Made by a program: the position numbers and the translations under genes
Part shown: positions 16,052-35,767 of the stretch, piece after piece
How the letters are laid out: each line of letters begins with the position of its first letter
Numbering within the stretch: position 1 is the stretch's first letter
Assembly (NCBI GenBank): GCA_016788705.1
Contig: JAEUSQ010000039.1
Span: 62,001 to 126,000, forward strand
Reading direction: 5' to 3'
DNA: 64,000 nucleotides
From: Bacteroidetes Order II. bacterium
GTDB lineage: Bacteria > Bacteroidota > Rhodothermia > Rhodothermales > UBA2364
Notes under the pieces: generated by a model
The model's input: only the letters and a program-made list of their open reading frames with translations
Database searches by the model: none
Told to the model about the DNA's origin: nothing

Positions 16052-16052
16052 C

Positions 16053-17882
16053 TCACAAAGCCAGTACCAATGCCTCGTAGGGCCTTAGCACCGATTTGGC
16101 TTCTGGATCTGGATAATTTCCCAACAGAACGCGGGCGTTTTTGAGGTTAATCCCCAAGTTTACGGTTGCTTTTTGGGATTTAAAATTCAACAGAATTAAA
16201 AGTTTACGGCCATTCCACTCACGGGCATAGGCATAGATATCCGGATTTTCAGCGTCTAAGAGGGTATATTTTCCATAAACCAATGTTTGTTCTTTTTTCC
16301 GAAGTTGGTTCAATTTCCGAAAATAGTTTAACGGCGAATGGGGGTCTTTCTCCTGTGCCTCCACATTGATTTGGTTGTAATTGGGGTTGACGCCAATCCA
16401 CGGTGTACCAGACGTAAATCCTGCATGTGGGCTTGTATTCCATTGGTGTGGTGTACGTCCATTATCACGATTATAGCGGGCAAATTGGGCCAATATCTGA
16501 CTTTCCGGTACGCCCTTGTTTTTTAAGTATGTAAACTCGTTAAAAGTCGGTTTGTCTCGGTAGTCTTCGATGCGGCTAAAGCCGATATTCGTCATTCCCA
16601 GTTCATCCCCATAATAATAATAAGGCGTTCCACGCATGGTCAGGATAAAGGTACTCAGCATCATAGAAGACAGCGAGCGGAACTCTGGTGCATCATTTCC
16701 AAATCGAGAGACCATACGTGCCTGATCGTGATTAGACAGAAAAATAGAAATCCATCCTTTCTCTGCAAAATGGGCATCCCAACGGCTAAAGACTTCTTTA
16801 AACTGCGCCAAGGTCCAATTGGGCTTACTGCCTAAATCCACCCCTTCAAACGCATAAGCCATATTGAGTTCGTTTCGGTCTTCATCCACCAGATTATGGG
16901 CGTCTTCCATTGTATTACCCGCACCTTCTGCTACACTCATTACGTCGTATTTGCTCAAGACTTCGCGGTTCATTTCCTGTAAATATTCGTGCAACCGAGC
17001 CCCCATGGCATAATACTGTAAGAAGTTTTGTTCGTACCCCTCTGGAAAAGGAGGATAGGTGGTATCTTTAGAAACAAATTGAAAAGCATCCATTCGGAAC
17101 CCATTTATGCCTTTTTTTGCCCAAAAGTGCATAATATCATAGACTTCTTGCCGGACTTTTGGATTTTCCCATTTCAAATCGGGTTGCTTCCGCGAAAAAT
17201 AATGGAGGTAATACGCATTGGTGGGTTCGTCGTACATCCATGCATCCCGGTTTACATCAAATAAACTATACCGATACGGCGGTTTGCCATTTTCGGCAGG
17301 CCACCAATGGTAATAGTCTCGGTAGGGGTTATTACGCGAGGAACGGCTTTGCTTAAACCACTCGTGTTCATCGCTACTGTGGTTCACGACCAAATCCATC
17401 ACCAATTTAATGCCCCTTTGATGCAAACCTGCCAGCAATTCGTCAAAATCCGCCATGCTGCCAAATTCGGGTTGGATGCTCCGGTAGTCACTAATGTCGT
17501 AGCCGTTGTCATCATTCGGAGATTGGTAGATTGGATTCAACCAGACCACATCTACGCCTAAACTTTTGATATAATCCAACTTAGAGACAATCCCTTTTAG
17601 GTCTCCAACCCCATCCCCATTGCTGTCTTTGAAACTTCGGGGATAAATTTGATACACCACTGCTTCTTTCCACCATTTCCGGTTTTGCTGGATTTGATCC
17701 GTTTTTTGGGGCACAGCCACTTGTTCAACAGGTTTGCACGCGGGCAATAGCAGCACACCTACTAAAACGACCCAAAAAGTCCGACGCCACCCAATACGCT
17801 TGGTGAAGAAATCATGGCCGTCTTGGAGGCTACCGACAGCCGCTTTGGTCTCATCCAGAAGACCATATTTATACTTATACAT
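16053..17882 (-). CDS. GH13 alpha-glucosidase/alpha-amylase lipoprotein
   Basis: This 609-aa protein has a hydrophobic segment ending LLLPAC, a lipobox, preceded by an unusually long ~33-residue N-terminus. The GH13 barrel follows: WWKEAVVYQIYPRSFKDSNG, LVMDLVVNHSSDEH, GINGFRMDAF (nucleophile Asp ~263), MSVAEGAG (acid/base Glu ~319) and FLSNHDQAR (stabilising Asp ~385). The order matches the oligo-1,6-glucosidase/alpha-glucosidase subfamilies. It should act in the periplasm or at the membrane on short alpha-glucans. It is followed directly by galK and is divergent from the sugar symporter. Confidence 0.9.
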   Translation of the reverse strand: MYKYKYGLLDETKAAVGSLQDGHDFFTKRIGWRRTFWVVLVGVLLLPACKPVEQVAVPQKTDQIQQNRKWWKEAVVYQIYPRSFKDSNGDGVGDLKGIVSKLDYIKSLGVDVVWLNPIYQSPNDDNGYDISDYRSIQPEFGSMADFDELLAGLHQRGIKLVMDLVVNHSSDEHEWFKQSRSSRNNPYRDYYHWWPAENGKPPYRYSLFDVNRDAWMYDEPTNAYYLHYFSRKQPDLKWENPKVRQEVYDIMHFWAKKGINGFRMDAFQFVSKDTTYPPFPEGYEQNFLQYYAMGARLHEYLQEMNREVLSKYDVMSVAEGAGNTMEDAHNLVDEDRNELNMAYAFEGVDLGSKPNWTLAQFKEVFSRWDAHFAEKGWISIFLSNHDQARMVSRFGNDAPEFRSLSSMMLSTFILTMRGTPYYYYGDELGMTNIGFSRIEDYRDKPTFNEFTYLKNKGVPESQILAQFARYNRDNGRTPHQWNTSPHAGFTSGTPWIGVNPNYNQINVEAQEKDPHSPLNYFRKLNQLRKKEQTLVYGKYTLLDAENPDIYAYAREWNGRKLLILLNFKSQKATVNLGINLKNARVLLGNYPDPEAKSVLRPYEALVLAL

Positions 17883-20072: not shown

Positions 20073-20120
20073 GAATACCCTTCATGATAATTTCTTAAAA
20101 TGTAAGCGATTCCGGATTTT

Positions 20121-20183: not shown

Positions 20184-20267
20184 TTCTTGTAAAAAAGCAC
20201 GAAGAATGATTTTTCTTGCCCACCTGTGTCACCCCAACATTCCTAACAACCAAACACTTACCAAACT

Positions 20268-23200
20268 ATGTTGAAAAAACTTTACAGCTTGGTGGCCGTG
20301 TTGTTACTTTCGGGAACGTCTTTTGCTTTTGCTCAAAAGACGGTCTCTGGTAAAGTGACAGCAGCCGATTCGGGAGCTCCGCTTCCGGGTGCCACCGTTC
20401 AGGTGAAAGGTACCAACACCGGGGCTATAACCGACCTCGATGGTGCCTACTCCATTCGCGTTCCGAACAACAATGCAACCCTCGTTTTCTCTTTCGTGGG
20501 CTATGTAAGCAAAGAAGAAGTGGTAGGAGACCGCAATTCCATTAACGTAGCCCTCGGAGAAGACCCCAAAATGATGGAGGTTGTGGTTGTTGGATACGGC
20601 ATTCAGCGCAAGGCTGATGTGACGGCTGCTGTTTCGTCTGTAAACGTAAACGACGCCAATTTGGGGGTTGTTGCTTCCGTAGATCAATTGATGAATGGCC
20701 GTGCAGCTGGGGTTCAAGTAACCCAAAACTCAGGTGATCCAGGCGGTGGCATGACGGTACGTGTACGTGGTGGTGCATCATTGGGTGCCAGTAACGAACC
20801 CCTTTATGTAGTGGACGGTATTCCGATGGATACCTCTCCCACAGCAACCAGTAACAGTTTGGGTGCGTCTGGTGCGGGCAATGCTACGTTCCAAGCACGT
20901 AACCCGATGAACTTCTTGAATCCGAACGACATCGAATCCATTGACATCTTGAAAGACGCCTCTGCAACCGCTATTTATGGGGCACGTGGCGCCAATGGGG
21001 TAGTGCTGATTACCACCAAAAAAGGGAAGGCGGGACTACTTTCTACCAACTATGATGTGTACGTTGCTTCTTCTTCTGCTGCTCGCCGACTGAATCTTTT
21101 GGATGCAGCCGAATTCAAAACCCTTCGTACAGCAATGGGCTTAGCAGCCTTACCAGCAGAAGAAAAATATGACACCGATTGGCAGGACGAAATCTTCCGC
21201 AATGGCACCTCAATGAGCCATAACCTCAGCTTTGGTGGCGGAACCTCCAATACCCAGTATTTCGCTTCATTGAACTATATCAACCAACAAGGGATTGTTA
21301 TTTCCTCTGGGTTTGCACGTACAGGTGGCCGGATTAATGTCAACCATAAAGCTTGGGATGGCAAACTCCGCCTTGGCTTGAACATGAGTTCCTCCTATAC
21401 CTTAGACGATAACGTACCTTCTGGGACTGCTGACGGATTTAGCGGCGGTATGTTTACCAACGTCTTCCAGATGCACCCCACGCAGCCAGTGACGAATGCC
21501 GATGGCTCGTACTTTGAATTTGCACGTGCCACCCGTAACCCAGTAGCAATGGCCAATACGGTTGAAGACGGGATCAAAACCACCCGTTCATTGGGAAATA
21601 TCTTTGCAGAATTAGACCTGATCCCCGGCTTGGTAGGCCGTGTGAGCGCCGCTGCCAGCCGTTCACAAGCCAGCCGTCGTTTCTTCATTCCCAAGAATAC
21701 CCCATTGGGGGATGAGTCTGGTGGACAGGCCATTCAAGGGAACCGCGAGTTGACCAATCAGGTTTTCCAAGGCCAATTGACCTATAACCCGAAAATTGCG
21801 GCCAATCAAAACCTCAGTGTTACCGGGGTTTATGAGTACAACCAATACGAAACAGAAGAATTAAATGCCCTTTCGTATGGTTTTACCACCGACGTAAACA
21901 GCTTTAACCGGATGGAGTCCGGCAAGACCCAACAAACCAGCTCCTATCATGCGGTTAACAAACTCATTTCCTTTATCAGCCGCGCCAACTACGACCTAAA
22001 CGGAAAGTATTACCTGCAAGTAACGGGCCGCTATGATGGTTCCTCGCGTTTTGGCCCGAATAACCGCTGGGCATTCTTTCCCTCGGCATCGGTCCGCTGG
22101 CGTTTAAGCAACGAAGAATTTTTGAAAGGCAACAGCACCATTTCAGAACTTTCACTGCGTGCTTCTTATGGCCAATCGGGACAAGAACGCATCGGAGATG
22201 ACCTGTGGCGCGCCACATTGGCTGCCAATACCAACTTTATCGCAGGTTTGGGCGGTCAACAAATTACGGGATATGCTTCTACGCAGCTTGCAAACCCTGA
22301 CCTGAAGTGGGAAACCATTTCTTCTACGAACTTGGGGATTGATTTTGGGTTGTTTAACAGCAAGATTCAAGGTTCGCTCGAACTGTATCAAGCAAAAACC
22401 AAAGACCTCTTGCTCGCAGTACCACAACCATTTGGCGTCGTAAATACCCGCTTTGAAAACGTTGGTTCTACCGAAAACAAAGGGTTTGAATTTAACCTCA
22501 CGGGTTATATTTTAGACAAAGACGACACCTCCCTCTCGATTACCGCCAACATCGGTGCCAACCGGAACCAAGTAATTGAATTGGATGGCCGCGAACAATT
22601 ACCTTATGCGGTGCGCGTTACAGGAGCCGGATATTCCGAAGCGCCTTTACAAGTGGTTCGCGTGGGTTTCCCCGTAACTGGAACCTTTATTGGTAGAAAA
22701 TACACGGGGTTGGACGCCAGCGGTAAAGAAACCTATGCCGTCGCTCCCACCACGGGCGATACGGCCGTTGGAAATGGCCTTGAAGTACTTGGAACCGCAG
22801 AGCCAGATTTTGTATATGGCCTCGCTACGAAATTTACCAAAGGCAATATTGACGTAAACCTCTTCCTCCGTGGCCAAGTGGGTGGGATGGTCTTTAACAA
22901 CACCGCAGCCGTCTATGGCTATCCGGGTTCCTCACTCAAGCAAGGCCAAAATGGGATTATCCCTTATGACATCACCGAAATTAGCGCATTAGCCAAAATT
23001 GAAAGCCCTGGATTTGCCTCCAGCCGTTGGCTTGAAGATGCCAGTTTTCTCCGTGTAGATAACCTTACGATTGGCTATCGGCTGGCCAATATCAGCAAGC
23101 GTGTTCGGACTGCCCGCGTATATCTGACTGGTCAAAACCTCTTCCTCCTCACTGGATATTCGGGATACGATCCGGAAGTTGCAGGCTTTGGCAACGGTGG

Positions 23201-23273
23201 TGGGGTTGGTGTGGACTACTTGGTTTATCCGAAAGCCCGTACCATCACCATTGGTGTAAACTTAGGTCTCTAA
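20268..23273 (+). CDS. SusC/RagA-family TonB-linked outer-membrane receptor
   Basis: This 1001-aa protein has a signal peptide ending SFAFAQ. A CarboxypepD_reg-like domain follows (TVSGKVTAADSGAPLPGATV, residues ~24-100). The SusC plug starts with VVVGYGIQRKADVTAAVSSV and includes NDIESIDILKDASATAIYGA and RGANGVVLITTKKG. The rest is a large barrel ending TITIGVNLGL. It imports oligosaccharides or peptides by TonB-dependent transport, with the SusD lipoprotein as a lid. The SusD gene follows 75 nt downstream. The carbohydrate genes around it suggest a glucan-type substrate, but specificity cannot be read from sequence. Confidence 0.95.
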   Translation: MLKKLYSLVAVLLLSGTSFAFAQKTVSGKVTAADSGAPLPGATVQVKGTNTGAITDLDGAYSIRVPNNNATLVFSFVGYVSKEEVVGDRNSINVALGEDPKMMEVVVVGYGIQRKADVTAAVSSVNVNDANLGVVASVDQLMNGRAAGVQVTQNSGDPGGGMTVRVRGGASLGASNEPLYVVDGIPMDTSPTATSNSLGASGAGNATFQARNPMNFLNPNDIESIDILKDASATAIYGARGANGVVLITTKKGKAGLLSTNYDVYVASSSAARRLNLLDAAEFKTLRTAMGLAALPAEEKYDTDWQDEIFRNGTSMSHNLSFGGGTSNTQYFASLNYINQQGIVISSGFARTGGRINVNHKAWDGKLRLGLNMSSSYTLDDNVPSGTADGFSGGMFTNVFQMHPTQPVTNADGSYFEFARATRNPVAMANTVEDGIKTTRSLGNIFAELDLIPGLVGRVSAAASRSQASRRFFIPKNTPLGDESGGQAIQGNRELTNQVFQGQLTYNPKIAANQNLSVTGVYEYNQYETEELNALSYGFTTDVNSFNRMESGKTQQTSSYHAVNKLISFISRANYDLNGKYYLQVTGRYDGSSRFGPNNRWAFFPSASVRWRLSNEEFLKGNSTISELSLRASYGQSGQERIGDDLWRATLAANTNFIAGLGGQQITGYASTQLANPDLKWETISSTNLGIDFGLFNSKIQGSLELYQAKTKDLLLAVPQPFGVVNTRFENVGSTENKGFEFNLTGYILDKDDTSLSITANIGANRNQVIELDGREQLPYAVRVTGAGYSEAPLQVVRVGFPVTGTFIGRKYTGLDASGKETYAVAPTTGDTAVGNGLEVLGTAEPDFVYGLATKFTKGNIDVNLFLRGQVGGMVFNNTAAVYGYPGSSLKQGQNGIIPYDITEISALAKIESPGFASSRWLEDASFLRVDNLTIGYRLANISKRVRTARVYLTGQNLFLLTGYSGYDPEVAGFGNGGGVGVDYLVYPKARTITIGVNLGL

Positions 23274-23348
23274 AATGGATAACGGTGGAAGCGCCCCTTC
23301 TCTCAATGGGTTATTCCTCATGCATCTAACATAAAACCGAAAACTTAT

Positions 23349-24929
23349 ATGAATAAATTTTTCAAATCCCTTCGTGCAAAGACGCTGGCGGTTGGAATCG
23401 TACTGCCGTCGGTACTGGGGACGGTAAACTTTGCCTGTACGGACTTAGATACCACGCCGTATAGCCTTATTACACCGGATCAATTCTTCAAGAACGATGC
23501 CGAATTCTTGGGTGCAATGGCGCCAGTCTATGCCCAATTGCGTGCCCTGCAATGGTCTTACCACAACATTCAGCAGCACTCCACCGACGAAACCATGGTA
23601 CCGCAACGCGGTGGTGACTGGGGAGACGGCAACCGCTGGAAGCAATTGCATCGCCATACATGGGACAAATCCCATAGCGACATAAACGACGCATGGAACT
23701 CGTCTTATACAGGCATTGCGCGCGCCAACTCCTTATTAGAAGCCTTAGATGCCTCAACGCTGGCTTCAGCAGCGGCATATAAAGCAGAAGTGCGGGTATT
23801 GCGTGCGTTCTATTATTATACCCTGTTAGATATGTTTGGTGGCGTACCGATTTATAAGGGCGCTACGGCCGACAAAAACAACCTTCCAGCAAGAAGCACC
23901 TCCGCAGAAGTGTTTAGCTTCATCGAAACAGAGCTAAAAGAAGCCTCTGCTGTGTTGCCAAAAGCGAAGGTACATGGACGGGTAAACTATTACAGCGCCC
24001 AAGCCTTGTTGACCAGAATTTACCTTAACAGCCAATTCTTTACCGGAACCGTTACCACGGCAGGCCTGCAAAAAGGTACTGCAAAATGGAATGAACTCAT
24101 TGCCGCTGCGGACAATGTGATCAATTCTGGTGAATATGGATTAGAGTCGGATTATTTCGCTTCCTTCATACCAAACAACCAAGGATCGAAAGAAAACCTC
24201 TTTGTCTCGGTTAACTTAAATATTGGTGGAAATGGTCTATCCTTCAATCAACGCCAATTACACTACAACCATGCCCTGCCACAAAGTCCTTGGAATGGTT
24301 TTACTACACTTGCTGAAACCTACAACAAATTCTCCGAACAAGATTATCGGAAAAATATGTTCCTGATTGGTCAGCAGTGTTCGAACTTTACCAATGCCGA
24401 CAAGGACGGAAATTGTCCTGCTGGTACGACGAAACTCACCGACCGCCAAGGAAACCCTTTGATCTTCACCTCGACGGTGGCAAACTTTGACAATGCCAAC
24501 GAAAGCGAAGGCATCCGTGTATTGAAATGGGGTATTGATACTGGTGCTGTCGGTGGAGATTCCAAGAACGACTACGCTTGGATCCGTTATGCCGACATCC
24601 TGCTTGCCAAAGCAGAAGCCCTGAACGAAACAGGCAATACCGCAGGTGCTGCCGCATTGGTTAACCAAGTCCGTACCCGTGCAAAATTAGGCAATCTGAG
24701 CGCTGCACAAACAGCCTCACAATCCGCCATGCGGACAGCCATTTTTGAAGAACGCGGGTATGAGTTCATTATGGAAGCTGTTCGTCGCCTCGACATGATC
24801 CGTGCGGGAACCTATACCAGCGCAGATTGGCAGTTCAAGGAGAAAAAAGAAGCCTTCCGGGTACTGTATCCGATACCACAAGGTGCCATTGACGCCAACT
24901 CGAAGCTGACCCAAAACGCAGGGTATTAA
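23349..24929 (+). CDS. SusD/RagB-family outer-membrane lipoprotein
   Basis: This 526-aa protein has an N-terminal hydrophobic region ending TVNFAC, with the likely lipidated Cys followed by TDLDTTPYSLITPDQFF. SusD features are the TPR-like helices (GIARANSLLEALD, YKAEVRVLRAFYYYTLLDMFGGVPIY split over two segments) and the C-terminal RYADILLAKAEALNETG, FEERGYEFIMEAVRRLDMIR and YPIPQGAIDANSKLTQN. It binds the substrate at the surface and pairs with the SusC protein upstream. A hairpin terminator or attenuator separates it from the VCBS genes. Confidence 0.95.
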   Translation: MNKFFKSLRAKTLAVGIVLPSVLGTVNFACTDLDTTPYSLITPDQFFKNDAEFLGAMAPVYAQLRALQWSYHNIQQHSTDETMVPQRGGDWGDGNRWKQLHRHTWDKSHSDINDAWNSSYTGIARANSLLEALDASTLASAAAYKAEVRVLRAFYYYTLLDMFGGVPIYKGATADKNNLPARSTSAEVFSFIETELKEASAVLPKAKVHGRVNYYSAQALLTRIYLNSQFFTGTVTTAGLQKGTAKWNELIAAADNVINSGEYGLESDYFASFIPNNQGSKENLFVSVNLNIGGNGLSFNQRQLHYNHALPQSPWNGFTTLAETYNKFSEQDYRKNMFLIGQQCSNFTNADKDGNCPAGTTKLTDRQGNPLIFTSTVANFDNANESEGIRVLKWGIDTGAVGGDSKNDYAWIRYADILLAKAEALNETGNTAGAAALVNQVRTRAKLGNLSAAQTASQSAMRTAIFEERGYEFIMEAVRRLDMIRAGTYTSADWQFKEKKEAFRVLYPIPQGAIDANSKLTQNAGY

Positions 24930-24964
24930 TTCGGTTTAGCCACTGGCCTGTACATTTATCGTAG

Positions 24965-25020
24965 AGGGAATAATCCTTGCCTGCCGGTTAAACCGGAATT
25001 ATCAGGGGTTATTCCCTTTT
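24965..25020 (+). terminator. terminator or attenuator between susD and the VCBS genes
   Basis: AGGGAATAATCC pairs with GGTTATTCCCT (one bulge) and is followed by TTTTTG. A second perfect hairpin, CCGGTT-A-AACCGG, lies inside its loop (24984-24996). It could end the SusCD transcript, or partly attenuate read-through into the four genes downstream. Confidence 0.65.
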
Positions 25021-25043
25021 TGTTTCGTATTTTGAAGCCGTTT

Positions 25044-28000
25044 ATGTCCACGCTTTTTTCCCAAACAACCATGCTCAAGTACGCTATCGGGCTACTTTTT
25101 GGCGGCCTGTTGATTTTGACCTTGCCTGCCTGTACCCCCGATCCACACGACCCATACGAACCCCAACGCCCTTTGTTCACAAGATTAACGGCTTCTCGGA
25201 CGGGAATTGAATTCAAAAACGAACTTTCCCCAACCAAAGATTTCAACATCTTCACCTACCGAAACTTCCACAACGGAGGTGGGGTCGGGATTGGAGATTT
25301 TAATGCAGATGGAAAACCCGACCTCTTTCTAACCGCCAACCAGCGTTCCTCCCGATTATACCTAAACAAAGGCAAACTCCAATTTCAAGACGTTACCGAG
25401 GCCGCAGGGGTGGCCGTCAACAAAGGCTGGGCAACAGGGGTGGCCGTTGCGGATATAAATGCCGATGGAAAATTAGATATTTACATCTGTAATGCGGGAG
25501 ATAAAGATGGTCAGGCGCGTGCCAACCAACTCTTTATCAATCAAGGCAATGATGCACAAGGGCATCCCACTTTTACCGATGAAGCAGCGAAGTATGGCAT
25601 CGCAGATGAAGGGGCAACCACACATGCAGCCTTTTTTGACTATGATTTGGATGGCGATTTAGACCTTTATGTGTTAAACAATTCGTTTCGTCCGGTTTCT
25701 TCGTTTGGTATGCGGAACATCCGACACGAGCGGAACGATGTGGGCGGCCACAAACTATATCGGAACGAAGGCAATAACCAATTCAAAGACGTAAGTGCAC
25801 AAGCAGGTATCTATGGAAGTGAAATTGCGTTTGGGCTTGGTGTGACCGTTGGCGACATAAACCGCGACGGTTGGCCAGATATTTATGTCTCGAACGATTT
25901 TTTTGAACGAGACTATCTTTATATCAATCAAAAAAATGGCACTTTTTCGGAAGAGTTAGAAGCCCAAATGCCCTCACTCTCAATGTCTTCGATGGGTGCA
26001 GATATGGCCGATCTCAACAATGATGCCTATCCAGAAATATTTGTAACCGACATGTTGCCGGAAGACGATCTCCGGTTAAAAACCACTACCATTTTTGAAA
26101 ACTGGGATGTACGAAAACTCAAAATAGCCAATGGCTATTGGAATCAATTTACCCGAAATGCCCTGCAATTAAACAATAAAAACAATACTTTTTCGGAAAT
26201 AAGTGCGATGACCAAAACCGATGCTACGGATTGGTCTTGGGGCGCACTTATGGCAGATTTTGACTTGGATGGTCATAAAGATATTTTTGTCTGTAACGGG
26301 GTTTATAAAGATGTGACCAATCAAGATTTTTTGGAATTTTTCCAGAGTGAAGCCGTGGTACGGGAATTTGTGGTGGATCAAAATGCCGACTTCCGACCGC
26401 TTTTAGACAAAATCCCCAGCCGACCATTGCCCAATTACCTTTTTCGGAATGAGGGCAATCTTCAATTCCGGAACGTTGCCAAAGAATGGGGATTGGCCGA
26501 ACCCAGTTTTTCCAATGGCGCCGCCTATGCGGACTTTGATGGAGACGGAGATTTAGATATGGTCGTTAATAATGTGAATGAAACAGCCGCTTTTTACGAA
26601 AACAATGCCCGTGCCATACACCCCAACCACTTCTTGCAACTTCAGTTTAAGGGAGATGCTGGAAATATACGCGGGATTGGCGTTCAAGCAACCATCATGG
26701 CCAATGGCCAATCTTTCTATCTGGAAAACATTCCACAACGCGGCTTCCAGTCTTCCGTAGATGAAGTGATGACATTTGGGCTTGGCGACATTCAGACCAT
26801 AGATACGCTCCGTGTGGACTGGCCAAACGGCAAAAGCCAAGTACTTACCCAAGTCAAGGTAAACCAGAAACTGAGCCTCCAACTTGCCCATGCAACCTTA
26901 GCCACATCACAGTTCCGCAAAAACCCATCTCCACCGCTTTTGAAAGAGGTAACAACGCAAAGCGGACTTGACTTTACCCATACCGAAGGGGAATTCTCGG
27001 ACTTTGACCGAGAGTTTTTATTGCATCGTATGCAATCTACCGATGGCCCCCGTATGGCCGTGGGCGATGTAAATGGCGATGGGCACGAAGATATTTACAT
27101 CGGAGGCGCAAAAGACCAAGCGGGTTCATTGTTCTACGGAACTGGAAAAGGCTTCCGAAAGGGCAATCAAGCCCCTTTCGAGGATGCAAAAGCCGCAGAA
27201 GAAGTGGCTGCGGTCTTCTTTGATGCCGACAAAGACCAAGATTTAGACCTCTATGTGGTAACAGGGAGTTCGGAATTTGGACCAGATCAGGCCAATTTAC
27301 TGGAAGACTTGCTTTACTTGAATGACGGCAAAGGCCATTTCTCGCGGGCGGAAGGCAGAATTCCTGCCCGATACGATGCTGGCTCGGTGGTTGCTCCCAC
27401 CGATTACGACTTGGATGGGGATATGGACCTATTCGTTGGATCGCGGGTCATTCCAGGACAATATGGCGTAAAGCCTAAATCTGTACTATTGCGCAATGAT
27501 GGAAAAGGATATTTTACAGATATTACAGCAGATCTTGCCCCTTCCTTAGAACATGCAGGAATGGTGACCGACGCCCATTGGATGGATCTCAATGGTGATA
27601 AACGTCCAGACCTGATACTGGTGGGCGACTGGATGCCTGTCACCGCTTTTCTGAACCATAAGGATGGATTAAAAAAACATACCCCGCCGGGCCTCGAAAA
27701 CACCTATGGATGGTGGAGCCGCATGGTGGTAGAAGACACTGATGGAGACGGTGACGAAGACCTAATCCTAGGCAATTGGGGTTGGAACTCGGTTTTGGGC
27801 CAGCCCACCTCGGCCCACCCCACAGAGATGTATGTAGGAGATTTAGATCAAAATGGGCTGAATGAGCAGATTTTGGCGTATTACAAGCCATTAGACCAAA
27901 AAACCTTGCCCTTCGCACTGCGTGGTGATTTGGCGCGGCAGATGCCTACCGTCAAGTCCAAATTTCTGAAATATGCAGACTATGCAAACAAAACAGTTCT

Positions 28001-28412
28001 GGAGATATTTCCCACCGAGGCCCTTAAGAAAGCCCAATTCTTCCGTGCAAATACCTTTGCCACCACCCTCTTCGAAAACATAGGGAAAGGAAGCTTCCGT
28101 GAAGTGACGCTACCTGCGATGACACAAATTACCCCGGTTTTTGGTATAGCCGTCTGGGATATAGATCGCGATGGGAAGAAAGACCTGATATTAGGAGGAA
28201 ACCTCCGGCGTGTGAAACCCCAAATTGGTGAACTGACTGCTGGATATGGTATGGTATTAAAAGGCATAGGAAAAAATCAATTTAAGCCCCTACCCGCCTT
28301 CCAAACCGGACTTCGTATCCAAGGCGAGATACGCGACATACGCCCGGTTGGCCCTTTTTTGGTCGTCGCCCGCAGTAATGCAAAAGCCGTCGTTTTGGCG
28401 GTCAACCCTTAA
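25044..28412 (+). CDS. large FG-GAP/VCBS and ASPIC/UnbV-domain lipoprotein, copy 1
   Basis: The protein has ~1122 aa with a lipoprotein signal ending LILTLPAC. Calcium-binding FG-GAP/VCBS repeats are abundant: VGIGDFNADGKPDLFL, VAVADINADGKLDIYI and DYDLDGDLDLYVL near the N-terminus, and MAVGDVNGDGHEDIYI later. An ASPIC/UnbV-type block (GVQATIMANGQSFYLEN ... TFGLGDIQTIDTLRVDWPNG) lies at residues ~550-610. It is followed by a second propeller-like half. It is probably surface-anchored and works with SusC/SusD or in adhesion. A start at 25071 is also possible. The next gene is a paralogue 11 nt downstream. Confidence 0.85.
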   Translation: MSTLFSQTTMLKYAIGLLFGGLLILTLPACTPDPHDPYEPQRPLFTRLTASRTGIEFKNELSPTKDFNIFTYRNFHNGGGVGIGDFNADGKPDLFLTANQRSSRLYLNKGKLQFQDVTEAAGVAVNKGWATGVAVADINADGKLDIYICNAGDKDGQARANQLFINQGNDAQGHPTFTDEAAKYGIADEGATTHAAFFDYDLDGDLDLYVLNNSFRPVSSFGMRNIRHERNDVGGHKLYRNEGNNQFKDVSAQAGIYGSEIAFGLGVTVGDINRDGWPDIYVSNDFFERDYLYINQKNGTFSEELEAQMPSLSMSSMGADMADLNNDAYPEIFVTDMLPEDDLRLKTTTIFENWDVRKLKIANGYWNQFTRNALQLNNKNNTFSEISAMTKTDATDWSWGALMADFDLDGHKDIFVCNGVYKDVTNQDFLEFFQSEAVVREFVVDQNADFRPLLDKIPSRPLPNYLFRNEGNLQFRNVAKEWGLAEPSFSNGAAYADFDGDGDLDMVVNNVNETAAFYENNARAIHPNHFLQLQFKGDAGNIRGIGVQATIMANGQSFYLENIPQRGFQSSVDEVMTFGLGDIQTIDTLRVDWPNGKSQVLTQVKVNQKLSLQLAHATLATSQFRKNPSPPLLKEVTTQSGLDFTHTEGEFSDFDREFLLHRMQSTDGPRMAVGDVNGDGHEDIYIGGAKDQAGSLFYGTGKGFRKGNQAPFEDAKAAEEVAAVFFDADKDQDLDLYVVTGSSEFGPDQANLLEDLLYLNDGKGHFSRAEGRIPARYDAGSVVAPTDYDLDGDMDLFVGSRVIPGQYGVKPKSVLLRNDGKGYFTDITADLAPSLEHAGMVTDAHWMDLNGDKRPDLILVGDWMPVTAFLNHKDGLKKHTPPGLENTYGWWSRMVVEDTDGDGDEDLILGNWGWNSVLGQPTSAHPTEMYVGDLDQNGLNEQILAYYKPLDQKTLPFALRGDLARQMPTVKSKFLKYADYANKTVLEIFPTEALKKAQFFRANTFATTLFENIGKGSFREVTLPAMTQITPVFGIAVWDIDRDGKKDLILGGNLRRVKPQIGELTAGYGMVLKGIGKNQFKPLPAFQTGLRIQGEIRDIRPVGPFLVVARSNAKAVVLAVNP

Positions 28413-28423
28413 TAGAATCCCAT

Positions 28424-31400
28424 ATGACCACGAAACGTTCTTTTTTTGTTTTTTTATCCGGTGTTTTCTTTATTGCAATGCTTTTTTCTGTGGGCTGTAA
28501 CGATGCAGAAGGCCCTAAACGCTTTCAGAAAATTCCGGTCACGCAAAGTAATATTGCGTTCAAAAACGAATTACCCGAAGACAAGGATTTCAATATCATC
28601 AACTACCTCTATTACTATAATGGCGGCGGCGTAGCCATTGGCGACATCAACCGAGACGGCTTACAAGATATTTACTTCACTTCCAACCTTGGTTCCAATA
28701 AATTGTACCTAAACAAAGGTAATTTTGTGTTTCAAGACATTACGGCCAATGCAGGGGTTGGGCTTCGGAATGCCAATTGGAAAACAGGGGTAACGATGGT
28801 GGATATCAATGCCGATGGATGGTTGGATATCTACGTCTCTACCGTTTCTGGCATAGAAGGTCGCGCGGGGAAAAACGCCCTCTTCATCAATAATAAGGAC
28901 AATACGTTTACAGATCGTGCCGCCGATTTTGGCCTCGCACAAGAAGGCTATGGGCAACAAGCTACTTTTTTTGACTACGATAAAGATGGTGACTTAGATG
29001 TTTACTTATTGCGCACCTCTGTCCACTCCGAGAACAACTATCGGCCCGTAGCCATCCGTAACACACGCGACCCCAAGTCAGGGGACAAACTCCTCCGAAA
29101 CGACAATGGGAAATTTACCGACGTTTCTGAAAAAGCTGGAATTTGGGGCGGGAGCATTGGGTATGGACTCGGAATTGCCGTCGGAGACTTAGACCAAAAC
29201 GGCTATCCTGATCTCTATATTTCGAATGACTTCCATGAAGACGACTATCTCTATCTGAACAATGGCGACGGAACCTTTTCCGAGAAAATAAAAGACGCCA
29301 TGCCCCATACCTCGCAATACTCTATGGGAACCGATATTGCAGATGTTAACAACGACGGTTTGTTGGACGTGATGACCCTAGACATGATGCCAGACGAGGA
29401 ACCCATCCGGAAAGCCTCGGAAGGGGCTGATCGAGTAGATGTTTATCGGATGAAGCGCGAATATGGATATCACCACCAATTTGCCCGTAATGCCCTACAA
29501 CTCAACCGAGGTAATGGCCGATTTTCGGACATCGCGCCGTATGCCAACGTCTTTGCCACAGATTGGTCTTGGGGTGTTCTCTTCGCCGATTTGGACTTGG
29601 ATGGAAATAAAGACATTTTTGTATCTAATGGGATTTATCGCCGTCCTAATGACCTCGATTTCCTTTTTTATATCTCAGACAAAAGCATTCAGCGGGTGGT
29701 TACGCCTCAAAATTTGGAAATTTCCCGTAAAATGCCACAGGTAAAAATTCCCAATTATGCCTTCCGCAATACGGGCAAAACGCAATTTGAGCAAGTTTCA
29801 AAGCAATGGGGCTTAGACGACTTGGCCTATTCTAATGGGAGTGCTTATGCCGATCTGGACAATGATGGCGACCTAGACCTGATCACCAATTGCATCAATG
29901 AAACGGCGGGAATTTATCGTAACCAAACCCTTGAGCAAGACCAACAACGGTTTTTAACGGTGAAATTGGAAGGAACTGGGCTGAATACACAAGGGATTGG
30001 GGCGAAGGTGCAGGTTTTTTCCCGCCAACAAATGCAAGTACAAGAACAAAACCCAACACGTGGTTGGCTTTCATCCGTTACCCCTTTGTTGCACTTTGGT
30101 TTGGGTAAGAACGGACATGCAGACTCCATACGGGTTATCTGGCCTGATGGCAAATACCAAACCCTTTCCGCCCCAAAATCCAACCAAACCCTCACCCTCA
30201 AACAAGCCGAGGCCACGAGGACTTGGATAGAAACCAAGGCAACCACCGCCGGATTCGGTTTCGAGGACATCACAGCAAGTTCCGGTGTTCGGTATATCCA
30301 CAAAGAAAATGAATACACGGATTTTAACCGCGAATATTTGATTCCGAAAATGGTTTCGCAAGAAGGCCCTGCATTGGCAACGGGCGATGTAAACGGCGAT
30401 GGAATCCAAGATTTTTATGTCGGAGGCGCCTCCGGAATGCCTAAACAACTCTTCTTTGGCAAAAAAGAGGGGACCTTTGGCCTAAGTGTACAACCAGTCT
30501 TGGCTGCCGACTCGCTCTATGAGGATACGGATGCCATTCTGGTGGATGTAGATCAAGATAATGACCTCGACCTCGTCGTGGCAACAGGCGGCGGTATGTG
30601 GCCAAAAGGCGAATTGCTCGCGCAATCTCGGTTGTACCTAAACGATGGAAAAGGACAATTTACCAAAGCCACTGGATGGCCGTTGGTACGTGGTAACGCC
30701 GCTGCCCTCGCTGCTGCCGATATGGACGGAGACGGCGATACCGATCTGTTTGTCGGAATGAGGAGCGAGGTCTCTGCCTATGGCATGAAGCCCCGTTCTT
30801 ATCTTTTGGAGAATACGGGAAAAGGCATATTTAAAGATGTCACTGCTTCAAAAGCGCCAAAACTCGCCCATATTGGTATGGTGGCCGATGCCACATGGCG
30901 TGACGTAAAAGGTGATCGAAAACCGGAGCTGATTTTGGTCGGAGATTGGATGCCGGTCACCATTTTCGGCAAAAATGGCGCCGTTTGGGAGGTAATGGAT
31001 TCCCCCGGTTTAGCAAATACGAATGGCTGGTGGAATGCCCTCCACGTTGTGGATATAGACGCAGATGGAGACAACGACCTAATTGCAGGCAATTTAGGCG
31101 AAAACAGCATTTTTAATTCCAGCCTGCCCCTCCGTCTTCATATGAAAGACTTTGATGCCAATGGCAGCCCCGAAGCCATTATGACCTACCGCCGAAACGA
31201 TACAGAATATGCTACCGACCGCTTAGACGATCTTTTTCAGCAACTTCCCATACTTAAACAGCGCTTTGCAGCATCGTTCACAAAAGCAGGTGAGCAACCC
31301 TTTAGTGGCCTGTTTTCATCCGAACAACGATCTGGCGTGGCCGTTCAAGAAGCAACGCTGTTGCAGTCCTCGGTCTTTATCAACGATGGAAAGGGCGGAT

Positions 31401-31735
31401 TTACCCGAAAGGCATTGCCCATGGCGGCACAATTTTCGCCCATTTTTACCATTCAGAGCGCAGACCTCAATGGAGATGGGAAATTAGACCTGATCACCGC
31501 AGGGAATTTCTATGGGGTGAAGCCCTCCGTTGGGCGCTATGATGCAGGTTTTGGCACAGTTATGTCCGGTGACGGCAAAGGTGGATTTACGGAAGTTCCT
31601 AACCATACAACGGGGCTGTGGCTGACGGGTGAAACCAAAGCAATCCGTTTCATCCAAAACCCCAACGGTTCCTTAACGCTTTTGGTCGCACGAACGGGAG
31701 ATGCGTTGCACATCTGGCGATATGCAAAACATTAA
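28424..31735 (+). CDS. large FG-GAP/VCBS and ASPIC/UnbV-domain lipoprotein, copy 2
   Basis: This 1103-aa protein has a lipobox at MLFSVGC. Its architecture matches the preceding protein: N-terminal FG-GAP repeats (VAIGDINRDGLQDIYF, MVDINADGWLDIYVS, YDKDGDLDVYLL), an ASPIC/UnbV block (HFGLGKNGHADSIRVIWPDG), then a second repeat half beginning FEDITASSGVRYIHKENEYT and LATGDVNGDGIQDFYVGGA. It clearly arose by tandem duplication but has diverged substantially. Its role is unknown, probably surface binding in the same locus. It is followed 21 nt later by the glycosidase gene. Confidence 0.85.
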   Translation: MTTKRSFFVFLSGVFFIAMLFSVGCNDAEGPKRFQKIPVTQSNIAFKNELPEDKDFNIINYLYYYNGGGVAIGDINRDGLQDIYFTSNLGSNKLYLNKGNFVFQDITANAGVGLRNANWKTGVTMVDINADGWLDIYVSTVSGIEGRAGKNALFINNKDNTFTDRAADFGLAQEGYGQQATFFDYDKDGDLDVYLLRTSVHSENNYRPVAIRNTRDPKSGDKLLRNDNGKFTDVSEKAGIWGGSIGYGLGIAVGDLDQNGYPDLYISNDFHEDDYLYLNNGDGTFSEKIKDAMPHTSQYSMGTDIADVNNDGLLDVMTLDMMPDEEPIRKASEGADRVDVYRMKREYGYHHQFARNALQLNRGNGRFSDIAPYANVFATDWSWGVLFADLDLDGNKDIFVSNGIYRRPNDLDFLFYISDKSIQRVVTPQNLEISRKMPQVKIPNYAFRNTGKTQFEQVSKQWGLDDLAYSNGSAYADLDNDGDLDLITNCINETAGIYRNQTLEQDQQRFLTVKLEGTGLNTQGIGAKVQVFSRQQMQVQEQNPTRGWLSSVTPLLHFGLGKNGHADSIRVIWPDGKYQTLSAPKSNQTLTLKQAEATRTWIETKATTAGFGFEDITASSGVRYIHKENEYTDFNREYLIPKMVSQEGPALATGDVNGDGIQDFYVGGASGMPKQLFFGKKEGTFGLSVQPVLAADSLYEDTDAILVDVDQDNDLDLVVATGGGMWPKGELLAQSRLYLNDGKGQFTKATGWPLVRGNAAALAAADMDGDGDTDLFVGMRSEVSAYGMKPRSYLLENTGKGIFKDVTASKAPKLAHIGMVADATWRDVKGDRKPELILVGDWMPVTIFGKNGAVWEVMDSPGLANTNGWWNALHVVDIDADGDNDLIAGNLGENSIFNSSLPLRLHMKDFDANGSPEAIMTYRRNDTEYATDRLDDLFQQLPILKQRFAASFTKAGEQPFSGLFSSEQRSGVAVQEATLLQSSVFINDGKGGFTRKALPMAAQFSPIFTIQSADLNGDGKLDLITAGNFYGVKPSVGRYDAGFGTVMSGDGKGGFTEVPNHTTGLWLTGETKAIRFIQNPNGSLTLLVARTGDALHIWRYAKH

Positions 31736-31756
31736 CCAAGATAAATATTACCTTTT

Positions 31757-34402
31757 ATGAAACGATTCTTTTTATGGCTTTTTCTGACGTCATTTACTCC
31801 TGTTATTGCGTGGGCACAGTCCCATACGGGCTTTGTTCCACGATTTGACCTCCCACGAAGTGGTCCATCTTTGCAAAGAACCATTCAGAACAGCGCTTTT
31901 ATGGGGGTCATGGGTCGAAAATCCGCAGCATTTGGCTACGAAAACAAGCCACTTGAAATGTGGGTGTATCCACTCAAATTGGTACATGATTTTAAGTTAG
32001 ACTTCATCACCGAGTACGAAGAAACCCAAGTTCCGGTGAGTGGCTCCGAAGCCGTAACTTCTATTGAGGTGCGCCCAGAATCAACCATTCTGACTTATCG
32101 CCATGCCGCTTTTTTGGTACGTCAGATCATTTTTGCTCCTGTACACGAACCGGGCTTGGTCATGCTCTTGGATATTGACTCACCTCGCCCACTCACAATT
32201 CGCGGTTCTTTCCGTCCTGCGTTGTCGCTGATGTGGCCTGCCGGATTGCAAACGGGCAATATCTTCTGGCAACCCGACCAACAACGCTATGGCATAGTAG
32301 AAGAATTGGGCAAGTATGTGGGCATCGTTTCGGTTCCGGGCGCACAAGACCGCTCCATCATCCCCTACCAAGAAGAACCCAGAGACACTCCAAATACCTT
32401 TGAAATTCGGGTATTGCCCGAAACCCATCGTGGACATTTTATTCCCCTTTTTATTTCCGGTGGAACGGATGGTTGGCAAGTTGCGGAAGAAAACCTTAAA
32501 CGCCTCCAAGCGAATCCAAAAGCACTCTACGAACAAACAACCGCTTACTACAAAACCTTTTTGTCCCAGACCACGTCCATTCAAACACCCGACGAGCGCC
32601 TTAATGCCGCTTATACATGGGCAAAAATCGGAACGGAAAAAGGTGTCGTGGATAACCCTCAATTAGGAACCGGACTTGTGGCCGGATTCAGAACGTCGGG
32701 AAACTCCGAAAGACCCGGTTTTGCGTGGTTTTTTGGACGAGATTCCCAGTGGACGGAATTGGCCATGCTCTCGTATGGAGACTTTGAGACCGTTAAACGA
32801 GGGCTTAACTTCCTCAAAAAATTCCAGTTTGAGGATGGACGTATTCCGCACGAGATTTCACAGTCTGCCGGATTGATAGACTGGTTTGGAAAGTACCCTT
32901 TTGGAAAAGCAAGTGCAGATGCCACGCCATTGTATGTCATCTTGCACCATGCCTATTACCAAGCAACGGGCGATCTTGCTTTTATCCGCGAAAATTGGCA
33001 CTCCATCAAAAAGGCTTGGGAATGGACTTCAAAAACCGATACCGACCAAAATGGCTTGATAGAAAATACGAATTTTGGACACGGATGGGTGGAAGGCGGA
33101 AAACTCTATCCGCCACACGAAGAAATGTATATGCAAGGACTTTGGATAGAAGCGTGCAAAGGAATGGCTAAGTTTGCAAATATAATGTATGAACCTCAGT
33201 TGGCCGACCAAGCATCGGATTGGGTACGACGAACCCAAGAAGCCATGGAAAAAACCTATTGGCTGCCCGAAAAACAATACTATGGCTATGCCACATCTAA
33301 GCCCGCCGAGAAAGAAAAAACGTTTGTACCAGACGGCCTGATGCCCACCAACCGCGAAACCGATGCACGCGGCTTTATGCAAGAAAGCACCGTCTTACCA
33401 GCCGTCCCGATGTGGTTCCGAACCACTGAACCTGATAGGACACAAAAAGCCTTAGACGAAATCGGTTCAGGAAGATTGGCTACCGATTGGGGACACCGCA
33501 TCTTAAATAGCCAATCTCCGATATACGATCCGATGAGCTATCATTATGGCTCCGTCTGGCCGCTTTTCACGGGTTGGGCCAGCCTCGCCGGATACAACTA
33601 CGGACGGCCACATATCGGATACCAAGCCCTGATGGCGAATGCCTTGCTCACCTTTCAAGATGCCTATGGTTATGTCACCGAATTGCTCTCAGGAGACTAC
33701 AATTCTGCTTTCGGGAGAAGCTCACACCATCAAATTTGGTCTGAAGCAATGGTCATCTCACCACTGGTGCGAGGACTTTTTGGTATAGAGGCCCTCAATG
33801 GAGGCAAAACCTTGGCCTTTAGTCCCCAAGTCCCCGCCGATTGGGATCAATACAGCATCAAACAGTTGCGTATTGGAGAAGACTGGGTGAACATCAACGC
33901 AAACCGATCCCCCAACCGCGACCAATACAACTTCTCTGGTCAAACCAAAGGCACAGAAGTTCGGTTTGAACCTGTGTATCCAAACAACGCCAAAATCAAG
34001 TCGGTCTTGGTGAATGGAAAAGCCGCTACCTTCAAAACCGAGCCTTTTGGCGATGGACAAAAAGTGGTCATACCTATTTTCACGGTAGATAAAAGCGAAG
34101 TCCTCATCCAGCATGAAGCCGGAGCGGGGGTCTATGTGCGACAAACAGAAGCACCTCTTGGCGGAAAAAACACACAAGTCAAGGTCTTGCGTGCAAAAAC
34201 GGAAGGCAAAGTACTGACGCTACTGGTAGAAGGTCTTGCCGGAACCCAGCAATCGGTTTTTGTTCGCGGAACGCTAAGCCCGACAGCTACCAATGGCGTA
34301 ACGATTGATAAACTTTCTAATGGAGATCATGAGGTGCAAATAAACTTTACCGGAAAACAAGATTCGTTCATCCGTCAGACCATTCGTCTGCCTCTTCGTT
34401 AG
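31757..34402 (+). CDS. secreted six-hairpin glycosidase (glycogen-debranching/MGH1-like)
   Basis: This 881-aa protein has a signal peptide ending VIAWAQ. The N-terminal ~260 residues form a beta-rich domain. The central (alpha/alpha)6 region contains RPGFAWFFGRDSQWTELAML, RIPHEISQSAGLIDWFGKYP, ADATPLYVILHHAYYQATGD, WEWTSKTDTDQNGLIENTNF and DPMSYHYGSVWPLFTGWASL. This is the layout of amylo-alpha-1,6-glucosidase or mannosylglycerate-hydrolase-like enzymes. The C-terminus is a beta sandwich. It would act in the periplasm or outside. It is likely in one operon with the VCBS genes. The exact substrate is uncertain. Confidence 0.8.
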   Translation: MKRFFLWLFLTSFTPVIAWAQSHTGFVPRFDLPRSGPSLQRTIQNSAFMGVMGRKSAAFGYENKPLEMWVYPLKLVHDFKLDFITEYEETQVPVSGSEAVTSIEVRPESTILTYRHAAFLVRQIIFAPVHEPGLVMLLDIDSPRPLTIRGSFRPALSLMWPAGLQTGNIFWQPDQQRYGIVEELGKYVGIVSVPGAQDRSIIPYQEEPRDTPNTFEIRVLPETHRGHFIPLFISGGTDGWQVAEENLKRLQANPKALYEQTTAYYKTFLSQTTSIQTPDERLNAAYTWAKIGTEKGVVDNPQLGTGLVAGFRTSGNSERPGFAWFFGRDSQWTELAMLSYGDFETVKRGLNFLKKFQFEDGRIPHEISQSAGLIDWFGKYPFGKASADATPLYVILHHAYYQATGDLAFIRENWHSIKKAWEWTSKTDTDQNGLIENTNFGHGWVEGGKLYPPHEEMYMQGLWIEACKGMAKFANIMYEPQLADQASDWVRRTQEAMEKTYWLPEKQYYGYATSKPAEKEKTFVPDGLMPTNRETDARGFMQESTVLPAVPMWFRTTEPDRTQKALDEIGSGRLATDWGHRILNSQSPIYDPMSYHYGSVWPLFTGWASLAGYNYGRPHIGYQALMANALLTFQDAYGYVTELLSGDYNSAFGRSSHHQIWSEAMVISPLVRGLFGIEALNGGKTLAFSPQVPADWDQYSIKQLRIGEDWVNINANRSPNRDQYNFSGQTKGTEVRFEPVYPNNAKIKSVLVNGKAATFKTEPFGDGQKVVIPIFTVDKSEVLIQHEAGAGVYVRQTEAPLGGKNTQVKVLRAKTEGKVLTLLVEGLAGTQQSVFVRGTLSPTATNGVTIDKLSNGDHEVQINFTGKQDSFIRQTIRLPLR

Positions 34403-34450
34403 ACCAAGAGTAGAACGGTCTTTACCATAACTTTCTACCTACAAATTATT

Positions 34451-35767
34451 ATGAAAAAGCTATTTTTATTGGCACTCTGGATCTTTTTAGCGGGTTGTAC
34501 CGAAAAAAACTGGCAACCTGTTGTCCAAAGTACGGAACCAATTCTCGGGGCTTTACACACCCTGAACGAAGTAATTTTACACGACGTTTTTTCGCCACCA
34601 GTGGCAAGCCGAATTTTGGCCTACTCCTCAATTGCCGCTTATGAAGCCTCTATTGCAGGGAAAAACGACTTTTTGTCTTTGGCAGGTCAACTAAACAGCT
34701 TGAAAGAGATTCCCAAACCCAATCCAAACCAACCCATCAGTCCCGAAATTGCGGGGTTTACGGCTTACGTCGAGACCGCAAAAAAATTGGTCTTCTCCCC
34801 TGCGATGATGGATGCTTATGCCAATAAGGTTTATGAACGCTATCAACAGGCAGGCATCCCCAAAGACCTGTTGAGCCAGTCTCGAAAGTATGGAGAAAAC
34901 GTGGCTTTACATATTTTTGAATGGTCAAAGTCGGATCAATATAAACAAACCAGAAGTGCGCCTAAATACACCTTGGTCACGGGCGATCCAAGTCGGTGGA
35001 TTCCTACGCCCCCGATGTATAAAGAAGCTTTGGAACCCCATTGGGAAAAAATCCGAACTTTTGTCATAGATTCTGCTGCACAATTCACCATGAACCCCTT
35101 TCCCCCATACAGTAAAGACAAAAACAGTGCTTTCTACCAAGACCTTATGGAAATGTATGAAATAGGTAAACAACTCACGGATGAACAAAAGGCTATTGCA
35201 CTCTTCTGGGACGACAATGCCTTTGCCCTTCAGGTTCATGGACATGCCATGTTTGGGGTAAAAAAAGTGACTCCGGGTGGCCATTTTATGAACATCGCGG
35301 CCATTACAGCCCGGCACAAAAAACTCAGCGTTGTTCAAACCACCGAGACCTTTGCACGAGTAGCCATTGCCATTGCCGATGGATTCATTGCATGTTGGCA
35401 AGGAAAATACGCCACCAACCGCGTAAGGCCAGAAACCGTGATCAACCGCGAATATGATGAAAAGTGGGCGCCTTTCCTACAAACACCACCTTTTCCAGAG
35501 TATCCATCTGGTCATAGCACAATTTCTCGTGCTGCTGCTGAGGTACTTACCTTCCTACATGGAGATAATATGGCTTTCCAAGACACTTCTAACGTCCGAT
35601 ATGGAAACAAAGCCCGATCCTTTACCTCGTTCCGAGCGGCAGCCAACGAAGCTTCCATCAGCCGTGTGTATGGCGGAATTCACTACCGTACCGGAACCAC
35701 TGGAGGCGAAGACTTGGGACGCCAAGTAGGTGATTGGCATAATCGGAATCTCAAGACGCGGAAATAA
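34451..35767 (+). CDS. vanadium-dependent haloperoxidase/PAP2-like lipoprotein
   Basis: This 438-aa protein has a lipobox in ALWIFLAGC. All vanadate-binding motifs are present: K-x6-R-P in GKYATNRVRPE (K ~318), PSGHST (~352-357) and SR-x5-H in SRVYGGIHYRTGT (R ~403, H ~409). The Bacteroidota group with this domain shares its fold with acid phosphatases of the PAP2 superfamily, so the reaction may be halide oxidation or phosphate ester cleavage. It is the last gene of the SusCD-VCBS cluster, 48 nt after the glycosidase, and is closed by a bidirectional terminator. Confidence 0.85.
   Translation: MKKLFLLALWIFLAGCTEKNWQPVVQSTEPILGALHTLNEVILHDVFSPPVASRILAYSSIAAYEASIAGKNDFLSLAGQLNSLKEIPKPNPNQPISPEIAGFTAYVETAKKLVFSPAMMDAYANKVYERYQQAGIPKDLLSQSRKYGENVALHIFEWSKSDQYKQTRSAPKYTLVTGDPSRWIPTPPMYKEALEPHWEKIRTFVIDSAAQFTMNPFPPYSKDKNSAFYQDLMEMYEIGKQLTDEQKAIALFWDDNAFALQVHGHAMFGVKKVTPGGHFMNIAAITARHKKLSVVQTTETFARVAIAIADGFIACWQGKYATNRVRPETVINREYDEKWAPFLQTPPFPEYPSGHSTISRAAAEVLTFLHGDNMAFQDTSNVRYGNKARSFTSFRAAANEASISRVYGGIHYRTGTTGGEDLGRQVGDWHNRNLKTRK

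Follow-up and report, generated by a model that had tools for sequence, protein, structure and literature searches.

The six consecutive plus-strand genes at positions 20268–35767 of the window (the whole stretch of 64 000 nucleotides that was analysed) code for SusC, SusD, two VCBS/ASPIC lipoproteins (A and B), a six-hairpin glycosidase and a vanadium haloperoxidase-like lipoprotein (VHPO), and the association of the last gene with the SusCD-VCBS set extends well beyond this organism. Among 296 genomes of the phylum, a relative of VCBS-B is present in 53 of the 54 that carry VHPO as against 32 of the 242 that do not. We give about even chances to the proposal that the six genes form one sugar-regulated operon, in which an alpha-glucoside importer would be combined with surface-exposed VCBS-A and VCBS-B and with VHPO as a surface peroxide/halide enzyme.

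Gene content and boundaries

All six open reading frames of the original prediction were found and their families confirmed. The intergenic gaps, from susC to the VHPO gene, are 75, 90, 11, 21 and 48 bp, a hairpin is present on either side, and the six-gene order is identical in two congeners (loci L023 and L024). On the upstream side, a 16-bp inverted repeat (around 20023–20067; RNA fold −29 kcal/mol, z = −6.6) is likely to be a terminator between susC and the gene of an SSS-family sodium/solute symporter (vSGLT-like; 18311–19990, plus strand; SSS, 7.1e-63), which is probably transcribed separately from the susC operon. Downstream, a terminator-like hairpin is predicted from sequence at 35937–35970 (plus strand), and the six genes may share one transcript. 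The SSS gene was considered as an iodide importer and rejected, since its top NCBIfam model is the sugar-type PRK10484 (334 bits, though under the cut-off of 401); SSS genes lie inside the same-strand run of 8 of the 42 VHPO loci with VCBS genes. The divergent neighbour (16053–17882, minus strand), a GH13 alpha-glucosidase-type enzyme according to family profiles, shares 48–50% identity with the GH13 genes of four VHPO loci (L096, L075, L047 and L054).

SusC (20268–23273, plus strand; 1001 amino acids; SusC/RagA TIGR04056, 775 bits) and the SusD lipoprotein (23349–24929, plus strand; 526 amino acids; SusD_RagB, PF07980, 5.8e-34) have their nearest solved chains in 8aa4/9sje (1.4e-103) and 9sje_B, respectively, chains which we take to be those of a dextran system. 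Adjacent susC and susD genes with a linked carbohydrate-active enzyme, here the six-hairpin glycosidase, characterize a SusCD-based uptake operon (PUL-like). The SusC-SusD core is shared with the Bacteroides dextran/levan-type utilisomes (8aa4 and others), which provide the best matches among solved structures; in contrast to these and to the FjDexUL locus of Flavobacterium johnsoniae, the six genes of the window include no SusE/F, GH31 or GH66. FjDexUL, which is devoted to branched dextran, is similar in its SusCD core and its alpha-glucan-type glycosidases with a GH65 kojibiose hydrolase, and in being a sugar-induced operon, as is proposed here, whereas its gene list includes neither tandem VCBS/ASPIC lipoproteins nor a haloperoxidase (PMC10316084).

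The haloperoxidase-like enzyme

VHPO (34451–35767, plus strand; 438 amino acids; PAP2) matches PF01569 (2.1e-9) and is homologous over its full length (residues 2–429, E = 4.6e-127) to Zobellia galactanivorans VIPO1 (4cit, 4usz). The vanadate-binding Lys, Arg, Ser-Gly-His, Arg and His of the VIPO1 type are all present, in agreement with the complete motifs originally described, and the Lys, Arg, Ser, His, Arg and His of this site are kept in all 101 rows in which the site is occupied (the alignment has 102 rows, 1 of them truncated at the site). Two other VIPO1 residues, Tyr263 and Asp322 in what we take to be its numbering, are replaced by Phe258 and Gln317; Phe occupies the first of these positions in 42 of the 102 rows and Gln the second in 2.

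The VCBS/ASPIC lipoproteins

VCBS-A (25020–28412, plus strand; 1130 amino acids from a TTG start; CRTAC1-like, with FG-GAP repeats) and VCBS-B (28424–31735, plus strand; 1103 amino acids) both contain FG-GAP_3 and UnbV_ASPIC matches, in the order that defines the CRTAC1/ASPIC family, i.e. an FG-GAP propeller followed by the UnbV_ASPIC domain. They had been described as calcium-repeat lipoproteins of more than 1100 residues, and both the length and the repeats hold, with ten D-x-[DN]-x-D-G loops in each; the listed TTG of VCBS-A does not, since its true start is probably a later ATG, at 25044 or 25071, which would still leave more than 1100 amino acids. The predicted model of VCBS-B (pLDDT 85.4, pTM 0.87) has a CRTAC1-like propeller and ASPIC domain, residues 31–596 of which match CRTAC1 (9etn) with a Z-score of 39.3 (2.4 Å over 459 residues). 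Unlike CRTAC1, VCBS-B is a bacterial lipoprotein encoded in a SusCD operon and has a second propeller (608–1103). The modelled C-terminal propeller matches LGI1 (Z = 30.8), aldos-2-ulose dehydratase (28.8) and generic propellers (25); since the likeness to the dehydratase is below that to LGI1 and little above the generic level, no enzyme role of this kind is claimed for VCBS-B. In the VCBS tree, the A and B positions correspond to two branches (10 changes, as against 44.5 in shuffled data), and, as read from this tree, the two proteins are ancient paralogues with fixed positions in the operon.

The glycosidase and its sugar context

The six-hairpin glycosidase (31757–34402, plus strand; 881 amino acids; DUF608/MGH1-like) is probably periplasmic; instead of the lipobox first attributed to it, an ordinary SPI-like signal peptide was read by eye. 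GH65, GH37, GH133-type and GH116 were compared as candidate families, and only weak matches to family profiles were found (DUF608, MGH1-like, rhamnosidase-6H and GDE_C). Its top solved relative is 7vma, an archaeal-type amylo-alpha-1,6-glucosidase (5.6e-25), and none of these matches assigns the enzyme to a family. A single-sequence structure model was unusable (pLDDT 38.5). The solved matches that come after 7vma are mostly GH116-type beta-glucosidases/glucosylceramidases (4e-13) and run against an alpha reading.

Across VHPO loci the glycosidase slot is variable: it is filled by the six-hairpin enzyme, by GH65 or by none, and trehalase, GH13, GH97 or glycerol genes are found nearby. A glycosidase of the set searched for is present in the run of 17 of the 42 loci with VCBS genes as against 4 of the 38 evaluable loci without (P = 0.002), and is missing in the other 25 of the former, many loci being truncated; for GH65 alone the difference was not significant (P = 0.17). 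These enzymes include a GH37 trehalase (1.5e-149 to 2jf4), a GH65 relative of the kojibiose hydrolase FjGH65A (1.3e-243 to 7fe3) and GH13, GH97 and GH100-like proteins; the trehalase of the window's own genome sits elsewhere, away from the operon. In addition, the runs of the 42 loci contain glycerol kinase (8), glycerol-3-phosphate dehydrogenase (7) and MIP channel (5) genes. Judged by gene families, the recurring theme near VHPO loci is alpha-glucoside and glycerol catabolism. The original prediction had proposed the handling of phosphorylated or halogenated glycoconjugates, or dephosphorylation of an imported ligand. This found no positive support: no phosphodiesterase, phosphorylated-sugar enzyme or dehalogenase was detected among the neighbour representatives compared with Pfam/NCBIfam, although these represent about 20 families of several hundred clusters and the negative is therefore not exhaustive.

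Linkage of VHPO to SusCD-VCBS genes

VCBS genes are in the same-strand run at 42 of the 80 evaluable VHPO neighbourhoods (98 in all), and susC-susD is directly upstream in 15 out of 17 loci extended in that direction. The VHPO gene adjoins that of VCBS-B on the same strand and at a fixed position, often with a gap of less than 250 bp; the two are within 5 kb in at least 35 of the 54 VHPO genomes, and this adjacency is kept over deep branches, Gemmatimonadota included. It had been allowed that the VCBS and haloperoxidase genes might not be found together elsewhere; they do recur as a pair, with differing glycosidases, in Bacteroidota as well as Gemmatimonadota, so this objection falls. Since similar gene sets recur in many related bacteria, VHPO is regarded as a true operon partner, and conservation in both congeners together with this wide recurrence indicates that the set is not due to chance.

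The remaining 38 evaluable loci have no VCBS gene in the run, so that VHPO can function in other settings. Conversely, VHPO is absent from some carriers of the core: it is lacking in the 32 VCBS-positive genomes mentioned above, in five of the loci retrieved SusCD-VCBS and a glycosidase of the window type are present with no VHPO, and the genomes that host seven close relatives of the window glycosidase have no VHPO match. In the VHPO tree the window genus groups with Cytophagia-type enzymes, and in the VCBS and SusC trees the window sequences are placed with relatives from their own order and Gemmatimonadota. These positions differ, but AU tests (59 of the 98 VHPO rows plus the window, thinned by hand) rejected neither VHPO placement (P = 0.28 and 0.31); therefore, separate recruitment of VHPO is not claimed.

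Possible role of VHPO

In the proposed operon, SusC would act as channel and SusD as lid for the passage of alpha-glucosidic compounds across the outer membrane, the double-propeller paralogues (A beside SusD, then B) would capture ligand or dock partner enzymes at the surface, the exported glycosidase would then cut the ligand, and glucose might be taken up via carriers, for example the SSS symporter encoded next door. VHPO, a lipoprotein presumed to be at the same surface, would probably use peroxide and a halide (iodide or bromide), either to consume H2O2 given off by the algae or cyanobacteria on which the cell feeds, or to modify the ligand. Some VHPO carriers, Gemmatimonadota included, presumably live outside the sea (habitats taken from record titles or assumed), and these fit a halide-based role poorly. 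A stronger version, tentative and rather doubtful, is that SusCD, VCBS-A, VCBS-B and VHPO constitute one surface machine, perhaps a physical complex, throughout Bacteroidota and Gemmatimonadota, with VHPO acting on or protecting the captured sugar at the channel mouth; a SusCD importer would then include an oxidative step of its own, and the glycosidase would be a module that can be swapped.

Two other explanations have to be weighed. VHPO could be a passenger with a separate task in defence or detoxification, either making hypohalite or removing H2O2, retained beside SusCD-VCBS solely through induction in the same habitat and touching neither ligand nor importer. The 38 loci devoid of VCBS genes and the seven glycosidase relatives in VHPO-free genomes are consistent with this, as is the increase of Zobellia vIPO3 on Ascophyllum (PMC9296495); however, near-obligate co-occurrence with VCBS-B relatives and the tight same-strand position behind VCBS-B, maintained as far as Gemmatimonadota, make it somewhat unlikely. 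Alternatively, VHPO could be a surface phosphatase that removes phosphate from a ligand of the alpha-glucosyl-glycerol-phosphate type (a phosphoglycolipid or teichoic-acid fragment) before or during import, its product being used by the neighbouring glycerol genes. Such a diet was considered because glycerol genes recur, and is retained solely as a rival; kojibiosyl-glycerol units are present in some lipoteichoic acids, and PAP2 phosphatases have the same fold and vanadate/phosphate site. However, the acid-phosphatase signature (K-x6-RP..PSGH..SR-x5-H-x3-D) is incomplete in VHPO, where K319, R326-P327, P352-H355, S404-R405 and H411 are present and the final Asp is replaced by Gly415; the alignment shows that this Asp is also missing from Zobellia VIPO1, the nearest solved relative, which is an iodoperoxidase and not a phosphatase. 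With no phosphodiesterase among the annotated neighbour clusters and no glycerol genes adjoining the window operon among the genes annotated, we consider phosphatase activity distinctly improbable.

In the portions of the literature covered (PMC5064120, PMC8626586, PMC11871015, PMC9296495 and PMC10316084), VIPO1-type haloperoxidases are treated as iodine and algal-defence chemistry of marine bacteria, and no reason is given there for their presence in so many other Bacteroidota. A full-text literature search returned no paper that combines haloperoxidase, SusD and VCBS, and a match for vanadium haloperoxidase with polysaccharide utilization for Zobellia only. The company that VHPO keeps with relatives of a SusCD-operon propeller lipoprotein would supply a concrete context, alpha-glucoside uptake, and CRTAC1-like VCBS lipoproteins would no longer be mere filler in annotations but SusCD partners that can be tested.

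LacI-type sites upstream of susC

The promoter-proximal block (20100–20190, plus strand) contains three LacI-type palindromic cores, AAGCGATT, AAACGCTT and AAACGTTT, and is kept in a congener (G002). Of 23 VHPO operons, 11 have such cores ahead of susC, compared with a mean of 3.75 and a maximum of 9 after shuffling; the cores were also found in this place in 4 out of 4 glycosidase-only operons versus 0 out of 8 other susC genes. When the genome of the window itself was searched, 11 forward and 14 reverse rows (25 in total) were obtained versus 9 in a backwards control, and no LacI regulon could be defined; one of the sites adjoins a GH57 gene.

Organization of the predicted six-gene operon

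The predicted operon in window 20268-35767 (+) is best read as a core of SusCD and two tandem CRTAC1-like VCBS/ASPIC lipoproteins (VCBS-A and VCBS-B); the six-hairpin glycosidase and the VIPO1-type vanadium haloperoxidase-like lipoprotein (VHPO) are partners present at some loci and absent from others, and VHPO is a more constant partner of this core than the glycosidase. The six reading frames and the families assigned to them in the original prediction were confirmed by an ORF check and by family profiles. Neighbouring genes of the six, all on one strand, are separated by 75, 90, 11, 21 and 48 bp. The set is flanked upstream by a 16-bp inverted repeat, located between the sodium/solute symporter (SSS) gene and susC, and downstream by a terminator-like hairpin. 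The order of the six genes is identical in both congeners (L023 and L024), and the SSS gene and the divergent GH13 gene (16053..17882, minus strand) are also retained as neighbours in L181, a locus from the one congener fetched for that stretch. It was also observed that a galactokinase-like gene, together with the GH13 gene, diverges from the SSS symporter (window 14840-18279), and that the congener genome G002 retains the order GH13-SSS-susC.

Association of VHPO with VCBS genes

We analysed 98 VHPO loci, comprising the 80 top-ranked stretches out of 591 that were confirmed and 18 neighbourhoods from the order and genus of the window, a sample which leans toward close relatives because the best 80 of the 591 stretches were taken. 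A locus was considered evaluable if it extended at least 3 kb upstream or if a VCBS gene was seen; 80 of the 98 qualified. VHPO and VCBS genes, expected to travel together elsewhere, do so: in this sample a VCBS gene is present in the same-strand run around VHPO in 42 of the 80 evaluable loci, and 31 of the 80 have at least two (again among 98 loci that include the best 80 of 591). Because their original flanks were short, 17 loci were extended upstream. In 15 of these, susC and susD directly precede the VCBS genes; of the other two, one ends with susD at the contig edge (L158) and one has other genes upstream instead (L150). Many of the 17 contain three VCBS genes, the first and second of which flank a gene for a conserved lipoprotein of ~195 amino acids.

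Co-occurrence was also scored in a less biased sample of 296 genomes spread across the phylum (thresholds: 1e-60 for VHPO, 1e-100 for a relative of VCBS-B). VHPO was found in 54 genomes, a VCBS-B relative in 85 and both in 53 (Fisher P = 7.5e-35, a value that overstates independence because the sampled genomes are related). The two genes are on the same strand and no more than 5 kb apart in at least 35 of the 54 VHPO genomes, which is a lower bound since, among the places listed, scoring covered the two top VCBS candidates of each genome.

Several other genes were seen around these loci. The conserved lipoprotein of ~195 amino acids is encoded between the first two VCBS genes in L063 (1164-1751) and 12 other loci; no NCBIfam match was obtained for the L063 copy and no Pfam match for the L041 copy (1488-2051). 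A short protein (about 140-195 amino acids) with a partial SusC match recurs beside SusCD-VCBS operons (L028:4031-4528, L167-L171), and the L028 copy, the sole member scanned, is a TonB plug domain alone. An Aquirufa-type group (L085, L103, L107, L111 and L113) has VHPO without VCBS, preceded by a flavin amine-oxidase-like gene; in four Aquirufa-type loci VHPO is followed by a gene for a protein of ~128 amino acids that resembles, by eye, a truncated haemoglobin.

Two position-fixed VCBS paralogues

VCBS A and B are two position-fixed paralogues. A tree built from 110 VCBS proteins places the gene nearest to VHPO and the VCBS gene preceding it in two main branches, with 10 changes of position label versus 44.5 in shuffles. 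The two proteins of the window are 43% identical. The structure model of VCBS-B (pLDDT 85.4, pTM 0.87) contains two propellers, one of which is CRTAC1-like and carries an ASPIC domain (Z 39.3).

Variation of the glycosidase

A survey for changes of the glycosidase had been proposed with the original prediction, and the gene between VCBS-B and VHPO does vary: it is the window-type glycosidase in the genus of the window versus GH65, by itself or accompanied by one more gene, in L051, L054, L057, L072, L083 and L096. The GH65 proteins of these VHPO loci are close to FjGH65A, reported to be an alpha-1,2-glucosidase (PMC8626586). Within the order, seven further genomes with relatives of the window glycosidase (48-51% identity) gave no VHPO match, and the SusCD-VCBS core is present in all five fetched loci of such relatives (L167-L171). 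More distant glycosidase relatives (28-33% identity) have no VCBS neighbour in the eight loci fetched (L172-L179).

Features of VHPO

Homology to Zobellia VIPO1 spans the entire length of VHPO. In an alignment of 102 rows taken from the fetched loci, Lys319, Arg326, Ser353, His355, Arg405 and His411 are invariant in all 101 rows with a residue at the position. The closest characterised relative favours a predicted peroxidase rather than phosphatase activity. A crude lipobox pattern matches 75 of 99 VHPO ORFs, and an acidic residue is found shortly behind the lipobox Cys in 51 of these 75, a pattern that fits VHPOs being putative surface lipoproteins. The window's own genome encodes two further VHPO paralogues (C53:15182-16471 and C46:483-1631; 42% and 36% identical, respectively), and VCBS neighbours are absent from the stretches fetched around them.

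Possible substrate and control

Gene content of the runs was compared between the 42 loci with VCBS and the 38 evaluable loci without (from the 98 loci that include the best 80 of 591). Among glycoside hydrolases, GH37 was found in 9/42 versus 2/38, GH65 in 6/42 versus 2/38 and GH13 in 7/42 versus 1/38; the GH37 trehalase is frequently downstream of VHPO. The counts are 8/42 versus 1/38 for glycerol kinase, 7/42 versus 0/38 for glycerol-3-phosphate dehydrogenase, 5/42 versus 0/38 for MIP, 7/42 versus 0/38 for a sucrose-symporter-like MFS and 8/42 versus 1/38 for SSS. This recurrence of GH37, GH65, GH13, glycerol and transporter genes in VCBS-containing runs points indirectly to alpha-glucosides, for example trehalose, kojibiose or glucosylglycerol, as the candidate substrate. 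LacI-type cores are found upstream of susC and lend support to a putative control of the operon by sugar.
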